Assembly (NCBI GenBank): GCA_018266795.1
Contig: JAFDZV010000026.1
Location: 22,941 to 86,940, forward strand
Direction: 5' to 3'
From: Bacteroidota bacterium
Lineage (GTDB): Bacteria; Bacteroidota; Ignavibacteria; OLB7
Length of the DNA: 64,000 nucleotides
Part shown: piece by piece, positions 11,991 to 53,064 of the stretch
Position numbering within the stretch: the first letter of the stretch is position 1
Layout of the letters: every line of letters starts with the position of its first letter
Program-made: the position numbers and the translations under genes
The notes under the pieces: model-generated
Told to the model about the DNA's origin: nothing
Seen by the model: the letters and a program-made list of their open reading frames with translations, nothing else
Databases searched by the model: none

Positions 11991-13454
11991 CTACCCTGCC
12001 AGCCCATCGTACAGAGCCAGGTACTGCATCACCTGCACCTCCCACGAATAATTCTTCGCCATCCCGTTCAGCATCAACCGCTCCCACGCAGGCTTGTTGT
12101 GCCACAGCTCCGTTGCGGACCGCATCCCCCAGAACAGGCCATCGGGTGTGAAGTGGTCGAACACGAAGCCGGTTCCCTCGCCCGTTGCCGTATCGAACTG
12201 CTGCACCGTATCGGCCAGCCCGCCTGTTCTGCGAACTACCGGCACGGTGCCGTAGCGCAGGCTGTAGATCTGATTGAGGCCGCATGGTTCGAAGCGCGAC
12301 GGCATCAGGAAGATGTCGCTCCCGGCTTCGATCAGATGGGCCAGCTCGTTCTGAAAGCCCCGGTAGAAACAGACCCGGCCATGGAAGTCGTGCTGCAGGC
12401 CGGTGAAGAAGTCCTCGTACCGCGGCTCGCCGCTCCCGAGCACGGCAAGGCGTACGTTGGTTGCAGCAAGGAAGGGGCGCAGGATGTCGAAGAAGAGATC
12501 GAATCCCTTCTGCCCGGTCAGGCGGGAGACGATGCCGAGCAGGGGCGCATCGGAGTCGTAGGTGAGATTGATCCTTCCAAGGAGATACTTCTTGTTCTCC
12601 TCCTTCCAGCTCAGCTCCTCCGCCGAATAGGGATACGGTATCCAGACGTCGCACTCCGGGCTCCACTCGTTGTAGTCAACACCGTTTACGATGCCGTGCA
12701 GCGCATTACCGCGCCAGCGAAGGAAGTCCTGGAGCCCCGAGCCAAACTCCGGCGTCTGGATCTCGCGCGCATACGTCACGCTCACCGTGGTCAGCAGGTC
12801 GGCGTAGAAGATCCCGGTCTTCATGAAGTTCACGATGCCGTCGCGCAGATCCTCCGCGCTGAACATCTCCCGATAATTCCCCAGCCCAAGATGCTCGATG
12901 GCCTTGGAGGAGAATACTCCCTGATAGGCGATGTTGTGGATGGTCAGCACGGTACGGCTTCGCTCGAACAGTTCGTCCCACTTGTAGACGGTCTTCAGAT
13001 AGAGCGGCACCAGCGCGGTCTGCCAGTCGTTGCAGTGAAACACATCCGGGCTCCACCCCATGTGCTGGCAGCACTCAATGGCCGCCCTCGAGAGAAGGGC
13101 GAAGCGAAGGTACTCGTCCTCGTGATCGGTGTACACCGTACCACGGTGGTAGAGCCGGGGACAGTCCACCAGATAGAGATCGACATCCGAATCGTGGAGC
13201 TTCGTGGTCACCACATCGAACGTAACGGCATCGCCGCCGAAGTCGATGGTGAGATTCCGAAGGAAGTCCACGCGGTGGAATCGGCCGTTCGATACGTCGA
13301 TGGTGGAATAGAGAGGCATGAAGACGCGGATGTCGTTTCCGGCCTGCCCGACATATCGCGGAAGGGCCCCGGAAACGTCGGCGAGGCCGCCGGTCTTGGC
13401 GTACGGCGCAATCTCGGAGGAGATGAAACAGATACGGCGTCCGGACATCGGCAT
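11991..13454 (-). CDS. glgA: Glycogen synthase (ADP-glucose type)
   Basis: This GT5-family retaining glucosyltransferase extends alpha-1,4-glucan from ADP-glucose in the cytoplasm. Its 487 residues are typical of GlgA. The N-terminal sugar-nucleotide loop KTGGLADV (20-27) and HCNDWQTALVP identify the family, and the catalytic C-terminal half shows VSRLTGQKGFDL and PSRFEPCGLNQIYSLRYGTVPVVRRTGGLADTV with the E-x7-E pattern. The start is at MPMSGRR (MSGRR six bases in is possible). The gene stands alone, with no glgB, glgC or glgP within the window, and converges on the osmoprotectant operon. Confidence 0.95.
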   Translation of the reverse strand: MPMSGRRICFISSEIAPYAKTGGLADVSGALPRYVGQAGNDIRVFMPLYSTIDVSNGRFHRVDFLRNLTIDFGGDAVTFDVVTTKLHDSDVDLYLVDCPRLYHRGTVYTDHEDEYLRFALLSRAAIECCQHMGWSPDVFHCNDWQTALVPLYLKTVYKWDELFERSRTVLTIHNIAYQGVFSSKAIEHLGLGNYREMFSAEDLRDGIVNFMKTGIFYADLLTTVSVTYAREIQTPEFGSGLQDFLRWRGNALHGIVNGVDYNEWSPECDVWIPYPYSAEELSWKEENKKYLLGRINLTYDSDAPLLGIVSRLTGQKGFDLFFDILRPFLAATNVRLAVLGSGEPRYEDFFTGLQHDFHGRVCFYRGFQNELAHLIEAGSDIFLMPSRFEPCGLNQIYSLRYGTVPVVRRTGGLADTVQQFDTATGEGTGFVFDHFTPDGLFWGMRSATELWHNKPAWERLMLNGMAKNYSWEVQVMQYLALYDGLAG

Positions 13455-14708: not shown

Positions 14709-15056
14709 CATGCAACATCCCGTTCGCCGAAGCACAGCACTCCTACCGGCGCGCATGCACCGAAGTGCTCATTGCACGGAGGCCGATCGATGCATCTCCG
14801 GGTTCAAAGAACTGTCTTGCTATATGACCGTTCAAAGGGCCTCGAGGTCACGGCCTGCATTCCTATCAGACGAATAAATTCTCATGTGCAACGGATACGA
14901 AGCTGCCGGCGTTCCGGATGCCGGACGGGCCGCCTCCGTTGCAACCGAATGGTAATGGAGCGAAGGGGAACAATTATTTCCTTGGTTGTTCAATCGCGGC
15001 TTCGTTAATTCGCAGCCCGAGATTTTGGAATCAAATCCCAACAGGAGACAGCACAC

Positions 15057-15119
15057 ATGATTCAGTACACACTCACCCAGCCGATCGCTCTTCCGTTTGC
15101 GACCCGCTTCGCGGAGTAA
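15057..15119 (+). CDS. Leader peptide (20 aa) of ABC exporter operon
   Basis: A 20-codon ORF encodes MIQYTLTQPIALPFATRFAE. A strong ribosome binding site AGGAG (15043-15047) lies nine bases before the ATG. The ORF is followed within 45 bases by a hairpin (15163-15192) and then an intrinsic terminator (15234-15264), and next on the same strand is a heterodimeric ABC exporter operon. This order (leader ORF, alternative hairpins, terminator, exporter) is that of ribosome-mediated attenuators such as bmrB-bmrC-bmrD of Bacillus subtilis. The peptide itself resembles nothing I recognise. An independent small peptide gene is the alternative. Confidence 0.5.
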   Translation: MIQYTLTQPIALPFATRFAE

Positions 15120-15162
15120 CTGCGCGTTGTTGTTTGCTGTTTCGATGACACTGTAAACACTC

Positions 15163-15195
15163 GGCCGCAGGGAGCTCCAGCAACCCGCGGCCTTG
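15163..15195 (+). promoter_or_regulatory. Anti-antiterminator hairpin / antiterminator strand
   Basis: GGCCGC(A)GGG (15163-15172) can pair with CCCGCGGCC (15184-15192), giving nine base pairs with one bulged A and an 11-base loop. The 3' part, CCGCGGCCTTG (15185-15195), can instead pair with 15231-15243, giving eleven pairs with a two-base bulge and one G-U. That pairing would occupy the 5' arm of the terminator at 15234. The two pairings exclude each other. Confidence 0.5.
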
Positions 15196-15233
15196 GTATT
15201 GTAGCCCGTCATATCGGGCATACATGAATTCAA

Positions 15234-15264
15234 GAAGCCGTGGGTGCACAACGCCCACGGCTTC
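15234..15264 (+). terminator. Intrinsic terminator in exporter leader
   Basis: A perfect 11-bp stem, GAAGCCGTGGG / CCCACGGCTTC, with a 9-base loop is followed by TGTGTTTCT. It lies between the 20-codon leader ORF and the ABC exporter genes, so termination here would prevent their expression. Confidence 0.75.
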
Positions 15265-15518
15265 TGTGTTTCTGCCCATCAGCAAGGGCGCCCCCGAACA
15301 GGCGGGCAATGATAACCAGCACAGCCTCCCGGAAAACGGGCGTGGACGATCGGCCTCGACAGGCGATTCCCATCGGTACCGCATCGGGCCTGCGGCCTGC
15401 AGGTCGTTCGGTACACGGCATCGGGAACAACCGGGCCGCCGCATGATGTCATGACCCAACATGAACGTGCGCCGTGTATCCGCATTCGCGGAACATCGGC
15501 GCAGAATGGATTCATCGC

Positions 15519-17261
15519 ATGAACATGCAATTGAAACGATACGGAGCTCTGCTCTTCAGATACCTGCGCCCGCAGTGGCGCCGGGCGCTGGTGCTGGCGA
15601 TTCTGGTGGTGGCCAACATCGCGTTGCAGCTTCTCAGCCCGCAGCTCCTTCGAACCTTCATCGATTCGGCACTTGCCGGCGGCGTTACCTCCGGATTGAT
15701 CGGGCTTGCCCTCGCCTTCCTGGCGGTTGGCTTCAGCCAGCAGATCTTCTCCGTACTGGCCACCTACATCGGCACCGATGTTGGATGGACCGCCACGAAC
15801 AAGCTTCGCGTGGACCTGGCGGAGCATTGCCTGGCACTGGACATGGGCTTCCACAACGAGCGCACGCCGGGCGAGCTCATCGAGCGGATCGATGGCGACA
15901 TCACCGCCCTCTCCAATTTCTTCTCGCAGTTCGTGATCAAGATCGCCGGCAGCGTGCTGATGATCGGCGGGATACTGGTGGTGCTGACTATCGAGAATCG
16001 CCTGCTTGGCCTGGTGCTCGCCGGCTATGCGATACTCTCGCTCTTCGCGCTCAACTCCAGCCGCGAGATCGCCGTGAAGGCAACGGCGGAGGAACGAGAG
16101 TCCACCGCGGCACTCTTCGGATTCGTCGAGGAACGTCTGGCCGGCATCGACGATATCCGCGCGAACGGCGGCGGCGCGTTCACGCTCCGCAAGTTCTACG
16201 AGCTATCGCAGCACCTGCTCACGGCCGGACGCCGTGCCTGGATCAAGCACTCGCTGATGTGGGTGATCGTGGTTGGCCTCTTCACCGTGGGCGACCTCCT
16301 CTCGCTCGGCTTCGGCATCTACCTGTTCGGACAGCACCTGATCACGATCGGAACGGTGTATCTCTTCTTCCAGTACACGCAGATCATGGCGGACTTCGTG
16401 GACGAGCTCACGCATCAGCTGCAGGACATGCAGAAGGCGGGTGCAAGCATCGGCCGCGTGCAGGAGTTGCTGAGCACGACCAACCGGATGGTGGACGGCG
16501 AAGGGACAGCAATTCCCGACGGGCCGCTGGGCGTGGAGTTCGAGAAGCTGACCTTCGCATATGGAGAGGCAACGATTCTGAAGGATCTCTCCTTCTCCCT
16601 CCGGCCCGGCACGGTGCTGGGGCTGCTGGGGCGCACGGGAAGCGGCAAGACCACGCTCACGCGCATGCTCTTCCGGTTGTACGATCCGGTATCCGGCTCC
16701 ATCCGGATCTCCGGCGTGGACCTGCGCGATACCCGCCTGGAGCACGTACGGCAGCGCATCGCCATGGTGACGCAGGAGGTGCAGTTGTTCCACGCATCGG
16801 TGCGCGACAACCTCACCTTCTTCAACCGCGATGTCACGGACCAGCGCATCCTTGCAGTGATCGGGGAGCTGGGTCTCGATGAATGGTTCCGCGCGCTTCC
16901 GAACGGGCTGGATACGATGCTCGGTGCCGGCGGAAGCGGGATCTCCGCGGGCGAGGCGCAGTTGCTTGCGTTCGTGCGGGTGTTCCTCCGCAATCCCGGC
17001 CTCGTGATTCTGGACGAGCCGTCCTCACGGATGGATCTCGCAACGGAACGATTGCTGGAACGTGCCATGCACCGGCTGTTGAAGGGGCGCACGGCGATCA
17101 TCATCGCGCACCGGCTCTCCACGGTGCGGCGTGCGGACGAGATCATGATCCTGGATCACGGAACGATTCAGGAGCACGGCAACCGTGCGGGCCTTGCCGA
17201 TGATCCCTCCTCGCGTTTCTCGGCGCTCCTCCAGACGGGGATGGAACATATGGCGGCCTAG
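15519..17261 (+). CDS. ABC exporter half-transporter A (heterodimer)
   Basis: A 580-residue type IV (B-family) ABC half-transporter starting at MNMQLKRYG (MQLK two codons on is possible). Residues 1 to about 320 form the six-helix membrane domain; the rest is the nucleotide-binding domain. Walker A is GRTGSGKT (about 371-378). The ABC signature is degenerate, ISAGEAQ (475-481) in place of LSGGQ, while Walker B keeps the catalytic glutamate, LDE with E500, and the H-loop AHRLST is intact. The partner (17408-19195) has the opposite changes, so the two should form a heterodimer with one working and one degenerate ATP site. The substrate is unknown; drug, lipid or peptide export are all compatible. 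An attenuator-like leader lies upstream. Confidence 0.88.
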   Translation: MNMQLKRYGALLFRYLRPQWRRALVLAILVVANIALQLLSPQLLRTFIDSALAGGVTSGLIGLALAFLAVGFSQQIFSVLATYIGTDVGWTATNKLRVDLAEHCLALDMGFHNERTPGELIERIDGDITALSNFFSQFVIKIAGSVLMIGGILVVLTIENRLLGLVLAGYAILSLFALNSSREIAVKATAEERESTAALFGFVEERLAGIDDIRANGGGAFTLRKFYELSQHLLTAGRRAWIKHSLMWVIVVGLFTVGDLLSLGFGIYLFGQHLITIGTVYLFFQYTQIMADFVDELTHQLQDMQKAGASIGRVQELLSTTNRMVDGEGTAIPDGPLGVEFEKLTFAYGEATILKDLSFSLRPGTVLGLLGRTGSGKTTLTRMLFRLYDPVSGSIRISGVDLRDTRLEHVRQRIAMVTQEVQLFHASVRDNLTFFNRDVTDQRILAVIGELGLDEWFRALPNGLDTMLGAGGSGISAGEAQLLAFVRVFLRNPGLVILDEPSSRMDLATERLLERAMHRLLKGRTAIIIAHRLSTVRRADEIMILDHGTIQEHGNRAGLADDPSSRFSALLQTGMEHMAA

Positions 17262-17304
17262 CGGCCGGAACGGCACTGCAGCAGAAGACGATGCGGCGTG
17301 CAGC

Positions 17305-17334
17305 GCGCGGACGGCCGCCGCGCGGACGGCCGCC
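17305..17334. repeat. 15-bp tandem duplication
   Basis: Two perfect adjacent copies of GCGCGGACGGCCGCC in the 146-base gap between the two exporter genes. Confidence 0.85.
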
Positions 17335-17407
17335 GCTGCGGGGCCGGCGCATGCGCTCCGGCGGCGTTCGACGAAAACATGCGGAATGAACGTTTGAAGA
17401 ACGAACC

Positions 17408-19195
17408 ATGAAAACGCTACGCTACACACTTGCGTTGATTCGATACAACCCCGGACTCTTTCTGCTGAACTGTCTGGTCTGGGGACTGCATCATTCCCTG
17501 CCGGTACTCACCGGCCTGCTGACCCGTGAGGTATTCAACACGCTCTCGGGGAACGCAACCACGGGCATCAATGTCTGGACGCTGCTGGTGCTGATAGCGG
17601 CCGTTGCCGCCGCGCGCATCTCGATCATGGCCTACGGCGTTCGGCAGTGGAGCACATACTACTTCGAGGCGAGCGCCGTGCTGCGCCGCAACCTTCTGCG
17701 CTGGCTGGTGAGCGGCTATGGCTCGCGCGTTCTCGCGGACTCCCCCGGCGAGGCCGTGAGCCGCTTTCGCGACGACGTGGACGACGTTGTGCGCTACATC
17801 GAGAACTGGACGGACAGCGCAGGGCACATTCTTCTGATGCTGGTGGCGCTCGGTGTGATGTATGCAACCGCGCCGCTCATCACACTGGCAGTAATCGTGC
17901 CGCTCGTGGCCATTGCCGTGTTCACGCAGCGCGTCAGCGGACGGATTCGCAAGTATCGCCGTGCGATGCGTGAGGCAACAGGGCGCGTGACGGCCTTCAT
18001 CGGCGAGATCTTCGGCTCCGTTCAGGCGTTGAAGGTGGCCTCGGCGGAGCAGCATGTGGTTGCACAGTTCCGCCGCCTGAACGACGAGCGGCATCATGTG
18101 GCGCTGAAGGACAGCGTGCTTCGCGAGATCGTTCGTTCGCTGGATACCAGCATCGTGAACGTGAGCACCGGGGCGATTCTGATCATGCTCGCCTCCGCCG
18201 CCCAGCACGGCGCATTCTCCGTGGGCGACTTCGCTCTGTTCATCTTCTTCCTGAACAGGATCACTCGCAGCCTGTCGCTGATCGGCGACCTGCTTGCTTC
18301 GCACAGACGTTCCGGCGTCTCGTACGAGCGAATGACGGCAATGATGGCGAACGCTCCGTCCGGCTCGATCGTCGCTTCGGACCCTATGCCGCTGAGCGTG
18401 AAGGGACTTCAACCGTTCGAGATCGAAGCGGACCGTCCGCCGTATGTTGAGCGGTTGCGAACGCTCGAGGTGAGGGATCTGATCTACCTCCACCCCACAA
18501 CCGGACGCGGTATCGCCAACGTCACGTTCAGCGTGGCGCGCGGCGAGTTCGTGGTGATCACCGGACGGATCGGTGCAGGGAAGACAACACTGCTCCGAAC
18601 GCTGCTCGGGCTTCTGCCCAGGCAGTCCGGGGAGATTTTGTGGAACGACCGGCCGGTGCACGATCCAGCATCGTTCCTTCGCCCGCCGCATGCGGCCTAC
18701 ACGCCGCAGGTGCCGCGCCTGTTCAGCGACACTCTGCGGAGCAATATCCTGCTGGGAGAGGAAGGCGGCGATGAGGCTCTGGCCGAGTCGGTACGACTTG
18801 CAGTGCTGCAGCCGGACGTGGACGATCTTGAACTGGGACTGGAGACCACGGTGGGTCCGCGCGGCGTGAAGCTTTCCGGCGGCCAGGTGCAGCGGGGCGC
18901 GGCGGCGCGCATGCTGATGCGGAGCGCGGACCTGATGATCTTCGACGATATCTCGAGCGCGCTGGATGTGGAGACGGAGCGGACGCTGTGGGAGGGATTG
19001 TTCGAGCAGCGCGAGGCAACCTGCATCGTGGCGTCGCACCGTCGCGCCGCATTGCAGCGCGCCGATCGCATCATCGTGCTGTTCGAAGGCGAGGTAGTGG
19101 CCGAGGGAAGGCTGGATGCATTGCTCCGCACCTGCGTCGAGATGCGAATGTTGTGGAATACATCTCATGAAGAGGAGTTGCCGACGATCGCCTAG
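17408..19195 (+). CDS. ABC exporter half-transporter B (heterodimer)
   Basis: A 595-residue half-transporter, partner of 15519-17261. The membrane domain covers about residues 1-310, with hydrophobic segments such as LLVLIAAVAAARISIMAYG. The nucleotide-binding domain has Walker A GRIGAGKT (386-393), a canonical signature LSGGQ (489-493) and a Walker B in which the catalytic Glu is replaced by Asp (IFDD, D514). The H-loop ASHRR is kept. Together with the Glu-intact but signature-degenerate partner, this gives one consensus and one degenerate ATP site, as in TM287/288, BmrCD and TAP. An extra stretch of about 40 residues lies between the membrane and ATPase domains. Confidence 0.88.
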   Translation: MKTLRYTLALIRYNPGLFLLNCLVWGLHHSLPVLTGLLTREVFNTLSGNATTGINVWTLLVLIAAVAAARISIMAYGVRQWSTYYFEASAVLRRNLLRWLVSGYGSRVLADSPGEAVSRFRDDVDDVVRYIENWTDSAGHILLMLVALGVMYATAPLITLAVIVPLVAIAVFTQRVSGRIRKYRRAMREATGRVTAFIGEIFGSVQALKVASAEQHVVAQFRRLNDERHHVALKDSVLREIVRSLDTSIVNVSTGAILIMLASAAQHGAFSVGDFALFIFFLNRITRSLSLIGDLLASHRRSGVSYERMTAMMANAPSGSIVASDPMPLSVKGLQPFEIEADRPPYVERLRTLEVRDLIYLHPTTGRGIANVTFSVARGEFVVITGRIGAGKTTLLRTLLGLLPRQSGEILWNDRPVHDPASFLRPPHAAYTPQVPRLFSDTLRSNILLGEEGGDEALAESVRLAVLQPDVDDLELGLETTVGPRGVKLSGGQVQRGAAARMLMRSADLMIFDDISSALDVETERTLWEGLFEQREATCIVASHRRAALQRADRIIVLFEGEVVAEGRLDALLRTCVEMRMLWNTSHEEELPTIA

Positions 19196-51348: not shown

Positions 51349-52713
51349 ATGTCCACCATGAAGAAGTTCATGCTCGCCACAGTTCCGGTAATCATGCTGC
51401 CATGGTTGCTATGCTCGTGTACCACTGCCGAAATCGCGCGCGGTACGCGGCTCTCGTATGATATGGCACACGATCAATTCAGCACCTCGCCCCCGGGCGC
51501 AGGAAGTGTCAACGAAGGAGACATGGTGTCGCTCGAGCTGACGAACATCAATCCATTCGTTTATGATGTCGCGATCAACCAGCATTCGGTAACGTACAAC
51601 ACCTCGGTTCCGCCGATGCTGAAGCTTCCGCTGTTCGAGAACCAACAGCTCATGCAGAAGGGAGCACCGGTTATCGCGTCGAGCAGCGAGGAACTGACGC
51701 CCGAGCAGGCGCAGAAGGAGAACCCGGCGGCGGTAAGCCACTTCGCGGATCTCTACACGACATTCCGACAGAAGTACGCCGCCTTCGAAGCGTTCGCAAC
51801 GTTCGACAACTACCTCTACAGCGCGCTGCGCCGCCCGTTCGTCGATGAGGAGCACTTCAAGGAGGATCTGGGGAAGCACCTTTCCGAGGTGGCCGGCGGC
51901 CAGCAGCTCAGCACCAAGGCGGATTTCCTTACCCATGCCGAAACGCTTTTCGGCGACGTGGGCGCCGCCTACTTCGCGATGGCCGGCGCGCATGGCAAGC
52001 TGGAGGCCGCCGAAAAGGCGCGCGTGAAGGATGTGTTCACCAGCGCAACAGCGATCTACAACGAACTCCAGAGCAACTCGCTCTGGGCCATGAAGGTTGG
52101 CAACACTGCGGACGTCTATTTCTCGGTGATGAATACTCCGTTCCGCTTCTACTCCTTCAAGACACAGGCAAAGGGTGAGGCGGTACGCTTCGAAGTGGAG
52201 GGCCGCCGCAAGGAGTCCACCGATCTCAACGGACTCGAGGGCGTGCGTCCGTTCTCGCTGGACTACAGCGTGCCGGTAACGGGAGGATGGAAGATCGACT
52301 TCAGCGCCGGCATCTTCTTCAGTAATCTCGTGAACGATCAGTTCTCGCTGAAGGATGACAACGGCTCGCGATCCATTCTCAAGAAGAAGAGTGATGTGGC
52401 CAACTACGGCCCCGGTGCGCTGATGCACGTGTACTACAAGCCGATCGGCCTCGGGCTGAGTCTTGGAGCCTTCACCAACAACTTCACCAACGTGCAGTAT
52501 CTGCTGGGGCCCAGCATCATGTTCGGCGGATCGAACCGTTTCTGCATCAACGGCGGCGCCACGCTCGGCAAGGTTACGCGTCTCGCGGACGGCCTTGAAG
52601 TGGGCGCCACGATCCGCTCCGCAGACAGCGACCTCAACACCGTGCTCACCACGGAGCGCCTGGAGCTGGGTTGGTTTGTGGGCTTCAGCTACAATTTCAC
52701 GGCAGGCCTGTAG
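51349..52713 (+). CDS. Outer-membrane-like lipoprotein of unknown function
   Basis: A 454-residue protein beginning MSTMKKFMLATVPVIM, with a lipobox LLCSC (Cys ~23) for acylation. Residues ~120-300 are predicted helical and rich in Ala, Glu and Lys (TTFRQKYAAFEAFATFDN). The C-terminal ~180 residues look like beta-strands of an outer-membrane barrel: WKIDFSAGIFFSNLV, GLSLGAFTNNFT, LELGWFVGFSYNFTAGL. I recognise no named family. An intrinsic terminator follows at 52756. Start chosen at the ATG preceded by GAGAAGATC; MKKF nine bases further in is also possible. Confidence 0.8.
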   Translation: MSTMKKFMLATVPVIMLPWLLCSCTTAEIARGTRLSYDMAHDQFSTSPPGAGSVNEGDMVSLELTNINPFVYDVAINQHSVTYNTSVPPMLKLPLFENQQLMQKGAPVIASSSEELTPEQAQKENPAAVSHFADLYTTFRQKYAAFEAFATFDNYLYSALRRPFVDEEHFKEDLGKHLSEVAGGQQLSTKADFLTHAETLFGDVGAAYFAMAGAHGKLEAAEKARVKDVFTSATAIYNELQSNSLWAMKVGNTADVYFSVMNTPFRFYSFKTQAKGEAVRFEVEGRRKESTDLNGLEGVRPFSLDYSVPVTGGWKIDFSAGIFFSNLVNDQFSLKDDNGSRSILKKKSDVANYGPGALMHVYYKPIGLGLSLGAFTNNFTNVQYLLGPSIMFGGSNRFCINGGATLGKVTRLADGLEVGATIRSADSDLNTVLTTERLELGWFVGFSYNFTAGL

Positions 52714-53064
52714 TAATAGACGGGAGTGATCGGTGGTGGTGGATGCAATGGACAGCGGTCCGGAGATCTACTCCGGGCCGTTCTTTTTTCGGAACGCAGC
52801 CACATCAGGGACAGATCGCCACGCCCCCGCTTCGCGGGGTCTGCTCGTGACAATGGATGTGAAGGTCCACCAAGGGTCGTTGCCACGTCGGCAGCGGCTT
52901 CGCAGCGCGAAGACGGATTGCCTGTTCGCCCCTGGGCCGTTGCAAGCGAACGGAGTGAGCGCGGCAACCCTTTCCAACTGGCTCATTGAAGCCGCCTGCG
53001 GCTCGCAGTGCCGCCATCGAACGATCGCCATGGCCGCACCCGGTTCACAGCTCTCCGGCAAAGC
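52714..53064. other. Intergenic gap with terminator
   Basis: About 350 bases between the convergent lipoprotein and uvrB genes. Apart from the terminator at 52756-52789 I see nothing. Confidence 0.55.
52756..52789 (+). terminator. Intrinsic terminator of the lipoprotein gene
   Basis: CGGTCCGGAG pairs with CTCCGGGCCG (ten pairs, one G-U) across a 5-base loop and is followed directly by TTCTTTTTT. It lies 43 bases after the stop codon, a textbook rho-independent terminator. Confidence 0.9.

Follow-up and report, generated by a model that had tools for sequence, protein, structure and literature searches.

The DNA at 15030-15268 of the window (the whole 64-kb stretch of DNA that was analysed) is likely, from the modelling of its RNA, to act as a ribosome-sensing transcription attenuator of the ABC exporter operon at 15519-19195. 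Three results of the computation carry this assignment: the alternative structures available to the leader RNA, their dependence on the position of a ribosome, and the association of comparable modules with the exporter clade. The leader ORF (15057-15119, plus strand) has 20 codons specifying the peptide MIQYTLTQPIALPFATRFAE, terminates in a TAA stop codon at 15117-15119, and is preceded on the same strand by a Shine-Dalgarno (SD) sequence, AGGAG, at 15043-15047. Both the ORF and its SD had been described in an earlier note on this DNA, as had the beginning of the exporter genes at 15519, where an ATG is present. Since the nearest upstream gene, glgA (11994-13445, minus strand), is divergent from the leader and the exporter, the terminator at 15233-15265 should not be the end of a neighbour's transcript; a plus-strand gene was looked for in the ~1.6 kb upstream of the leader and none was recognised. 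The attenuator element occurs as a single copy in the genome, for which reason its identity as a repeated or mobile element was rejected.

The operon encodes two exporter subunits on the plus strand, A (15519-17261, 580 aa) and B (17408-19195, 595 aa), each joining a transmembrane domain (TMD) to a nucleotide-binding domain (NBD) and matching Pfam PF00664 and PF00005. Subunit A possesses a degenerate signature (ISAGEAQ) together with a Walker B motif that retains the catalytic Glu (LDEPSS); subunit B has the canonical signature LSGGQ and a Walker B motif with Asp in the place of the catalytic Glu (FDDIS). The adjacent TMD-NBD halves with complementary degenerate NBD motifs bear out the previous designation of a heterodimeric exporter, and support the prediction of a type IV ABC exporter with one degenerate ATP site. 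In the subunit comparison BmrC (YheI) reached 217 bits, behind TM288 (252 bits) and also below TmrA; BmrC is not the nearest among the solved relatives, and the exporter is, as judged from such sequence comparison, not an orthologue of BmrCD. The substrate of the pump is probably a translation inhibitor or a similarly toxic compound.

Folding of the leader RNA revealed five pairing segments, as opposed to the three previously noted. The post-stop stem (segments 1:2, 15120-15141 with 15147-15170; 20 bp, -20.1 kcal/mol) begins at the base immediately 3' of the leader stop codon. The protector hairpin (segments 2:3, 15163-15175 with 15180-15192; -19.1 kcal/mol) is the hairpin formerly placed at 15163-15192, and the antiterminator (segments 3:4, 15180-15196 with 15230-15247) confirms the pairing of CCGCGGCCTTG (15185-15195) with 15231-15243 as part of a longer helix of 16 bp, enclosing a 9-bp hairpin at 15200-15224 and folding at -34.6 kcal/mol with this inner hairpin included. 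The stem of the intrinsic terminator (segments 4:5, 15233-15246/15252-15265) likewise stands, its length having been understated as 11 bp at 15234-15264; it comprises 14 bp around the loop CACAA (-27.4 kcal/mol), is followed by the tail GTGTTTCTG with an imperfect and mediocre U-tract, GUGUUUCUG, and exceeds in stability every other terminator-like hairpin found on the two strands of the window. It begins 113 nt 3' of the leader stop codon, with 254 nt separating its stem from the exporter ATG. Elsewhere in the window, a canonical U-tailed terminator (AGCGGTCCGGAG...CTCCGGGCCGTT CTTTTTT, 52754-52782) is situated just 3' of an ORF ending at 52713, and the host genome can therefore be taken to use ordinary intrinsic terminators.

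By folding, the full post-stop stem and the protector are mutually exclusive, as are the protector and the antiterminator, and the antiterminator and the terminator. The protector cannot coexist with the antiterminator or with the base of the post-stop stem, yet is compatible with the upper part of that stem (15131-15159); only the base clashes, and this is the very part which a ribosome on the stop codon would cover. An additional helix, absent from the earlier note, is possible between the SD region (flanks 15035-15059) and 15123-15146.

The competing folds that had been proposed as a check were found as mutually exclusive sets within a region whose fold is far below those of shuffled sequences: the 261-nt leader region gave z = -4.7 versus dinucleotide shuffles, none of the 200 being as stable. 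When the terminator was kept and 15120-15232 was shuffled 600 times, an equally stable nascent fold was never obtained (0/600), an equally cheap full-length antiterminated state was reached once (1/600), and an equally large shift with ribosome position was seen in 7/600, with none of the 600 combining the cheap antiterminated state and the position shift. In a variant that also shuffled the ORF, 0/200 reached both. The mutual exclusion of antiterminator and terminator goes beyond what chance would give. The average probability with which the terminator 5' arm is paired was tried as a test statistic and rejected, 316 of 600 shuffles having reached the real 'flip'; it fails to separate because other pairings are counted, and energy gaps were used instead.

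It had been suggested previously that stalling in the leader ORF frees the exporter from termination. The exclusive structures, the modelled position dependence, and the modules in relatives speak for this suggestion, whereas the link between the structures and the ribosome was missing from it, given that the protector, with its start 44 nt 3' of the stop codon, is out of reach of a stalled ribosome. The post-stop stem (15120-15170) would supply this link, its base being covered by a ribosome only when that ribosome has come to the end of the ORF. In the mechanism proposed here, the polymerase would transcribe the leader ORF with a translating ribosome trailing behind it. On arrival at the stop codon the ribosome would cover the base of the post-stop stem (15120-15129), so that 15163-15175 would be free, the protector would hide 15180-15192, the terminator at 15233-15265 would form in the cell, and the pump would be off. 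A stall at about codons 1-17 would instead expose 15120-15130 and permit the full post-stop stem to form at the expense of the protector, whereupon 15180-15196 could capture the terminator 5' arm, the polymerase would enter the exporter genes, and the pump would be on. Were the leader to remain untranslated, its SD region may pair with 15123-15146, with the protector preferred and the pump off.

The ribosome was modelled as an unpairable stretch moved codon by codon, using equilibrium energies, which ignore the kinetics that decide in the cell. With the nascent RNA ending at ~15240, the antiterminator is favoured by ~3 kcal/mol when the ribosome edge is at 15118, and the protector by 3-6 kcal/mol when the edge is at 15124-15140. 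At nascent end 15241, the antiterminator is favoured by 2.4 to 9.1 kcal/mol with any of codons 1-17 in the P site and the protector by 4.4 kcal/mol with codons 19-20, placing the modelled switch point at codons 18-19. In the full-length RNA the terminator is preferred over the antiterminator by 1.7-7.1 kcal/mol at codons 1-17 (least at Phe14) and by 12.3 kcal/mol at codons 19-20. At equilibrium, the antiterminator wins at nascent end 15248 and the terminator at full length whatever the position of the ribosome, which shifts those margins by ~6-10 kcal/mol; a true flip takes place only near 15240. In the absence of a ribosome, 15123-15146 is taken up by pairing with the SD region, and the protector has the lower energy at 15240 (-63.9 versus -60.1), the RNA start in this model being set at 15040, which may differ from the real start of the transcript. 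The modelling thus supports a dependence of the preferred structure on ribosome position within the ORF, in the predicted direction.

As to the signal, the leader codons (MIQYTLTQPIALPFATRFAE) contain no regulatory run of one amino acid, making slowed or drug-stalled translation the likely stimulus and ribosome-targeting drugs its presumed cause. The same attenuator might, however, answer to an amino acid or to the general rate of translation, as in starvation or slow initiation, a reading that is tentative but deserves the most consideration among the alternatives: in the model a ribosome anywhere in codons 1-17 trips the switch, which is accordingly not specific for one stall site. Weighing against it, besides the composition of the leader, are the nature of the target, an exporter rather than a biosynthetic operon, and the precedent of bmrB, the known exporter attenuator, which answers to ribosome-targeting drugs (PMC4191407).

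The host genome measures 6 Mb, and the named assemblies closest to it are labelled 'Chlorobiota bacterium'. Every one of the five family genomes carries a subunit A orthologue (56-58% identity), and none was found in the rest of the 294 genomes of the class that were searched. Leader ORFs with a strong SD were found in a similar position in three of the four relatives (4/5 family genomes), the full module being seen in the species of the window and a same-genus relative. In the latter (loci L003/L032), AGGAG and an 18-codon ORF, MLISFIRVMNSTNSRRRS, are followed by two U-tailed terminators, the SD pairs with the 3' end of the leader ORF, and the antiterminator potential compared with shuffles gave joint values of 0.045 and 0.01. 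In L032 the two terminators lie 100-215 nt before the exporter, and the 5' arm of the second is nearly complementary to the 3' arm plus U-tract of the first, which would point to a cascade where the second opens once the first has opened. Genomes G003 and G004 share a 24-codon leader with an SD (22/24 residues identical), the reading frame of which is intact, without a frame-breaking indel, although its flanks have indels; no clear U-tailed terminator adjoining it was found. This leader, MLFT[TN]ILTTAFASRPHNSVMAL[GW]A with AGGAGG, sits ~440 nt before the exporter (L005/L004), and its SD could pair with GCCTTCTG ~200 nt downstream. The remaining genome, G002, carries two strong terminators in tandem, with no ORF with an SD found. 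As to the alignment of the leader among close relatives and the conservation of its codons, both put forward earlier as checks, the leaders of the window and of the same-genus relative do not align, and from one species of the family to another the peptide lacks conservation. The arrangement would appear to recur within the family with sequences that turn over fast.

Beyond the family, the exporter clade (39-55% identity) was present in 66 of 350 Chloroflexota genomes, and 110 upstream regions, mostly from Chloroflexota and in a few cases from other phyla, were surveyed. A strict module was defined as an ATG-initiated ORF of 8-45 codons with an SD of at least 5 bases and a hairpin of -12 kcal/mol or below with a U-rich tail within 130 nt, these thresholds having been set after a loose first pass. 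Strict modules were found in 23/110 upstream regions of the exporter clade, compared with 1/110 on the reverse strand, 0-1/110 in shuffles, 2/60 before other ABC exporters of the same genomes (one of them, L217, with the same leader family), and 0/18 before other exporters in the window's family. The loose criteria (any start codon, a 4-base SD, any hairpin) were dropped, as they returned 66/110 but also 39/110 on the reverse strand. Leader and terminator modules are associated with the exporter clade and rare before other ABC exporters.

A compact family of such leaders, termed RSAP, comprises L072, L073, L076, L093, and L097 in Chloroflexota and L217 before a different ABC exporter, with no Rfam match in the loci searched. 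Its C-terminal RSAP[IT] is encoded near the ORF 3' end by GAAGTGCGC, to which the SD segment GGAGCGCACTTC is fully or nearly complementary and which also pairs with the terminator 5' arm (GGTGCAC or GGCGCAC). Such a switch would be off when the leader is untranslated or completed, and on upon an early stall. Antiterminator potential exceeded that of shuffles in most cases of this family, and a scan of the 350 genomes with the RSAP pattern gave 4 elements, all upstream of the exporter clade, against 0 for the reversed pattern. RSAP was also considered as a peptide-level arrest motif and set aside, the RNA pairing of GAAGTGCGC with GGAGCGCACTTC explaining the conservation at least as well.

Other recurrent leaders were encountered upstream of the exporter clade. 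A short ORF of the MxxxTAKVLL type, with GGAGG and TTCATC before the ATG, is located 350-760 nt upstream in L100, L105, L107, L117, L118, and L149, loci that probably belong to Ktedonobacteria (L149 to Ktedonosporobacter). Leader ORFs with AHSRTMP-like stretches directly before a U-tailed terminator precede the exporter in L050, L052, L054, L067, and L077, and smaller leader groups are recognisable by (F/T)xTTSxRGAFxAS (L127, L129, L130), FGRLSKKV (L139, L142), and VLPQSSYGKV (L134, L154). The chances are about even that the exporter clade, which is spread over Chlorobiota-like bacteria, Chloroflexota, and other phyla, has repeatedly come under leader-peptide attenuators, built many times from unrelated peptides and RNA architectures and each tuned to stalled ribosomes; if true, environmental lineages from which no such drug-sensing system has been reported would commonly possess one.

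The survey also bears on the possibility that 15233-15265 is a constitutive terminator after a small independent gene (for a small protein or an sRNA), the exporter being transcribed from a promoter of its own in 15266-15518. One could fit into the 254 nt that separate terminator and exporter, and the terminated state is the strongest of the full-length RNA; nevertheless, this account is unlikely, as it predicts neither that antiterminator and post-stop stem should so far exceed chance nor the repetition of ORF and terminator modules before the exporter clade, with their rarity before other exporters. A sigma-70 scan gave no promoter-like site, such a scan being uninformative here. A little less likely still is control by translation attenuation or by Rho in place of intrinsic termination, as might be read from the imperfect U-tract in the window and from the leaders of G003 and G004 that are kept without a clear U-tailed terminator nearby; against this, the terminator is 254 nt away from the exporter start, which no modelled helix includes, and no hairpin of the terminator kind in the window is more stable than its 14-bp stem. 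A riboswitch, T-box, or protein-binding leader with an incidental short ORF is the least probable of all, for although the strong structure between ORF and terminator and the tandem terminators of G002 without an evident SD and ORF would suit it, a search of the leader with Rfam covariance models matched no family, riboswitch or T-box even at E<=1, the post-stop stem starts right after the stop codon with the switch point at codons 18-19, and leader ORFs with a strong SD are found in 4/5 family genomes.

The preferred reading, a ribosome-sensing attenuator, has several counterparts among known systems. Amino-acid leader attenuators of the trp and leu type are built from preemptor, protector, and terminator helices. 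The window's leader resembles them in its overlapping helices read by ribosome position, but differs in having no regulatory codon run and in having an exporter as its predicted target. Predicted attenuators before ABC transporters, named ABC-leaders, include one before a multidrug export operon of lactobacilli; in the parts consulted of that study, the examples come from Firmicutes and Gammaproteobacteria, and a case in the window's lineage was not found there (Naville and Gautheret 2010, PMC2965389). The vmlR, ermC, and msrD leaders similarly employ a short ORF whose ribosome senses translation inhibitors (e.g. PMC9226507, PMC10314930), a likeness which extends to the Chloroflexota relatives, in which the SD region pairs with the ORF 3' end; they control ABC-F proteins or rRNA methylases, whereas the leader in the window would control a membrane exporter.

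In the open-access literature, no leader peptide with transcription attenuation was found for Chloroflexi and no recognised case with attenuation for Chlorobi, in agreement with the earlier statement that no such attenuator was known in this part of the tree. Transcription attenuation that senses antibiotics is best documented in Firmicutes; the present element would carry it into lineages for which metagenomes are the main source of knowledge, and would allow drug-responsive exporters to be found and labelled from sequence alone. It also offers several distinct leader peptides for identifying stalling drugs, and its five-segment layout, with a sensing stem that starts exactly after the stop codon, leads to sharp predictions testable by mutation.

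By analogy, the closest working model is bmrB-bmrC-bmrD of B. subtilis, whose heterodimeric exporter answers to ribosome-targeting drugs by way of leader translation and an intrinsic terminator, as the earlier note had also described (Reilman et al. 2014, PMC4191407). A leader ORF, alternative stem-loops, an intrinsic terminator, a heterodimeric ABC exporter, and the ribosome as the sensor are common to both. The bmrB ORF, however, is 53 codons long and contains the terminator within its coding sequence (PMC4191407), unlike the 20-codon ORF of the window, whose terminator lies outside and would be reached by way of the post-stop stem and the protector, and the window's exporter is, by the same sequence comparison, not orthologous to BmrC and BmrD. 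The best reading is that the attenuator works in the manner of bmrB-bmrCD, in lineages where none was found described, with its own arrangement of helices between the ribosome and the terminator.
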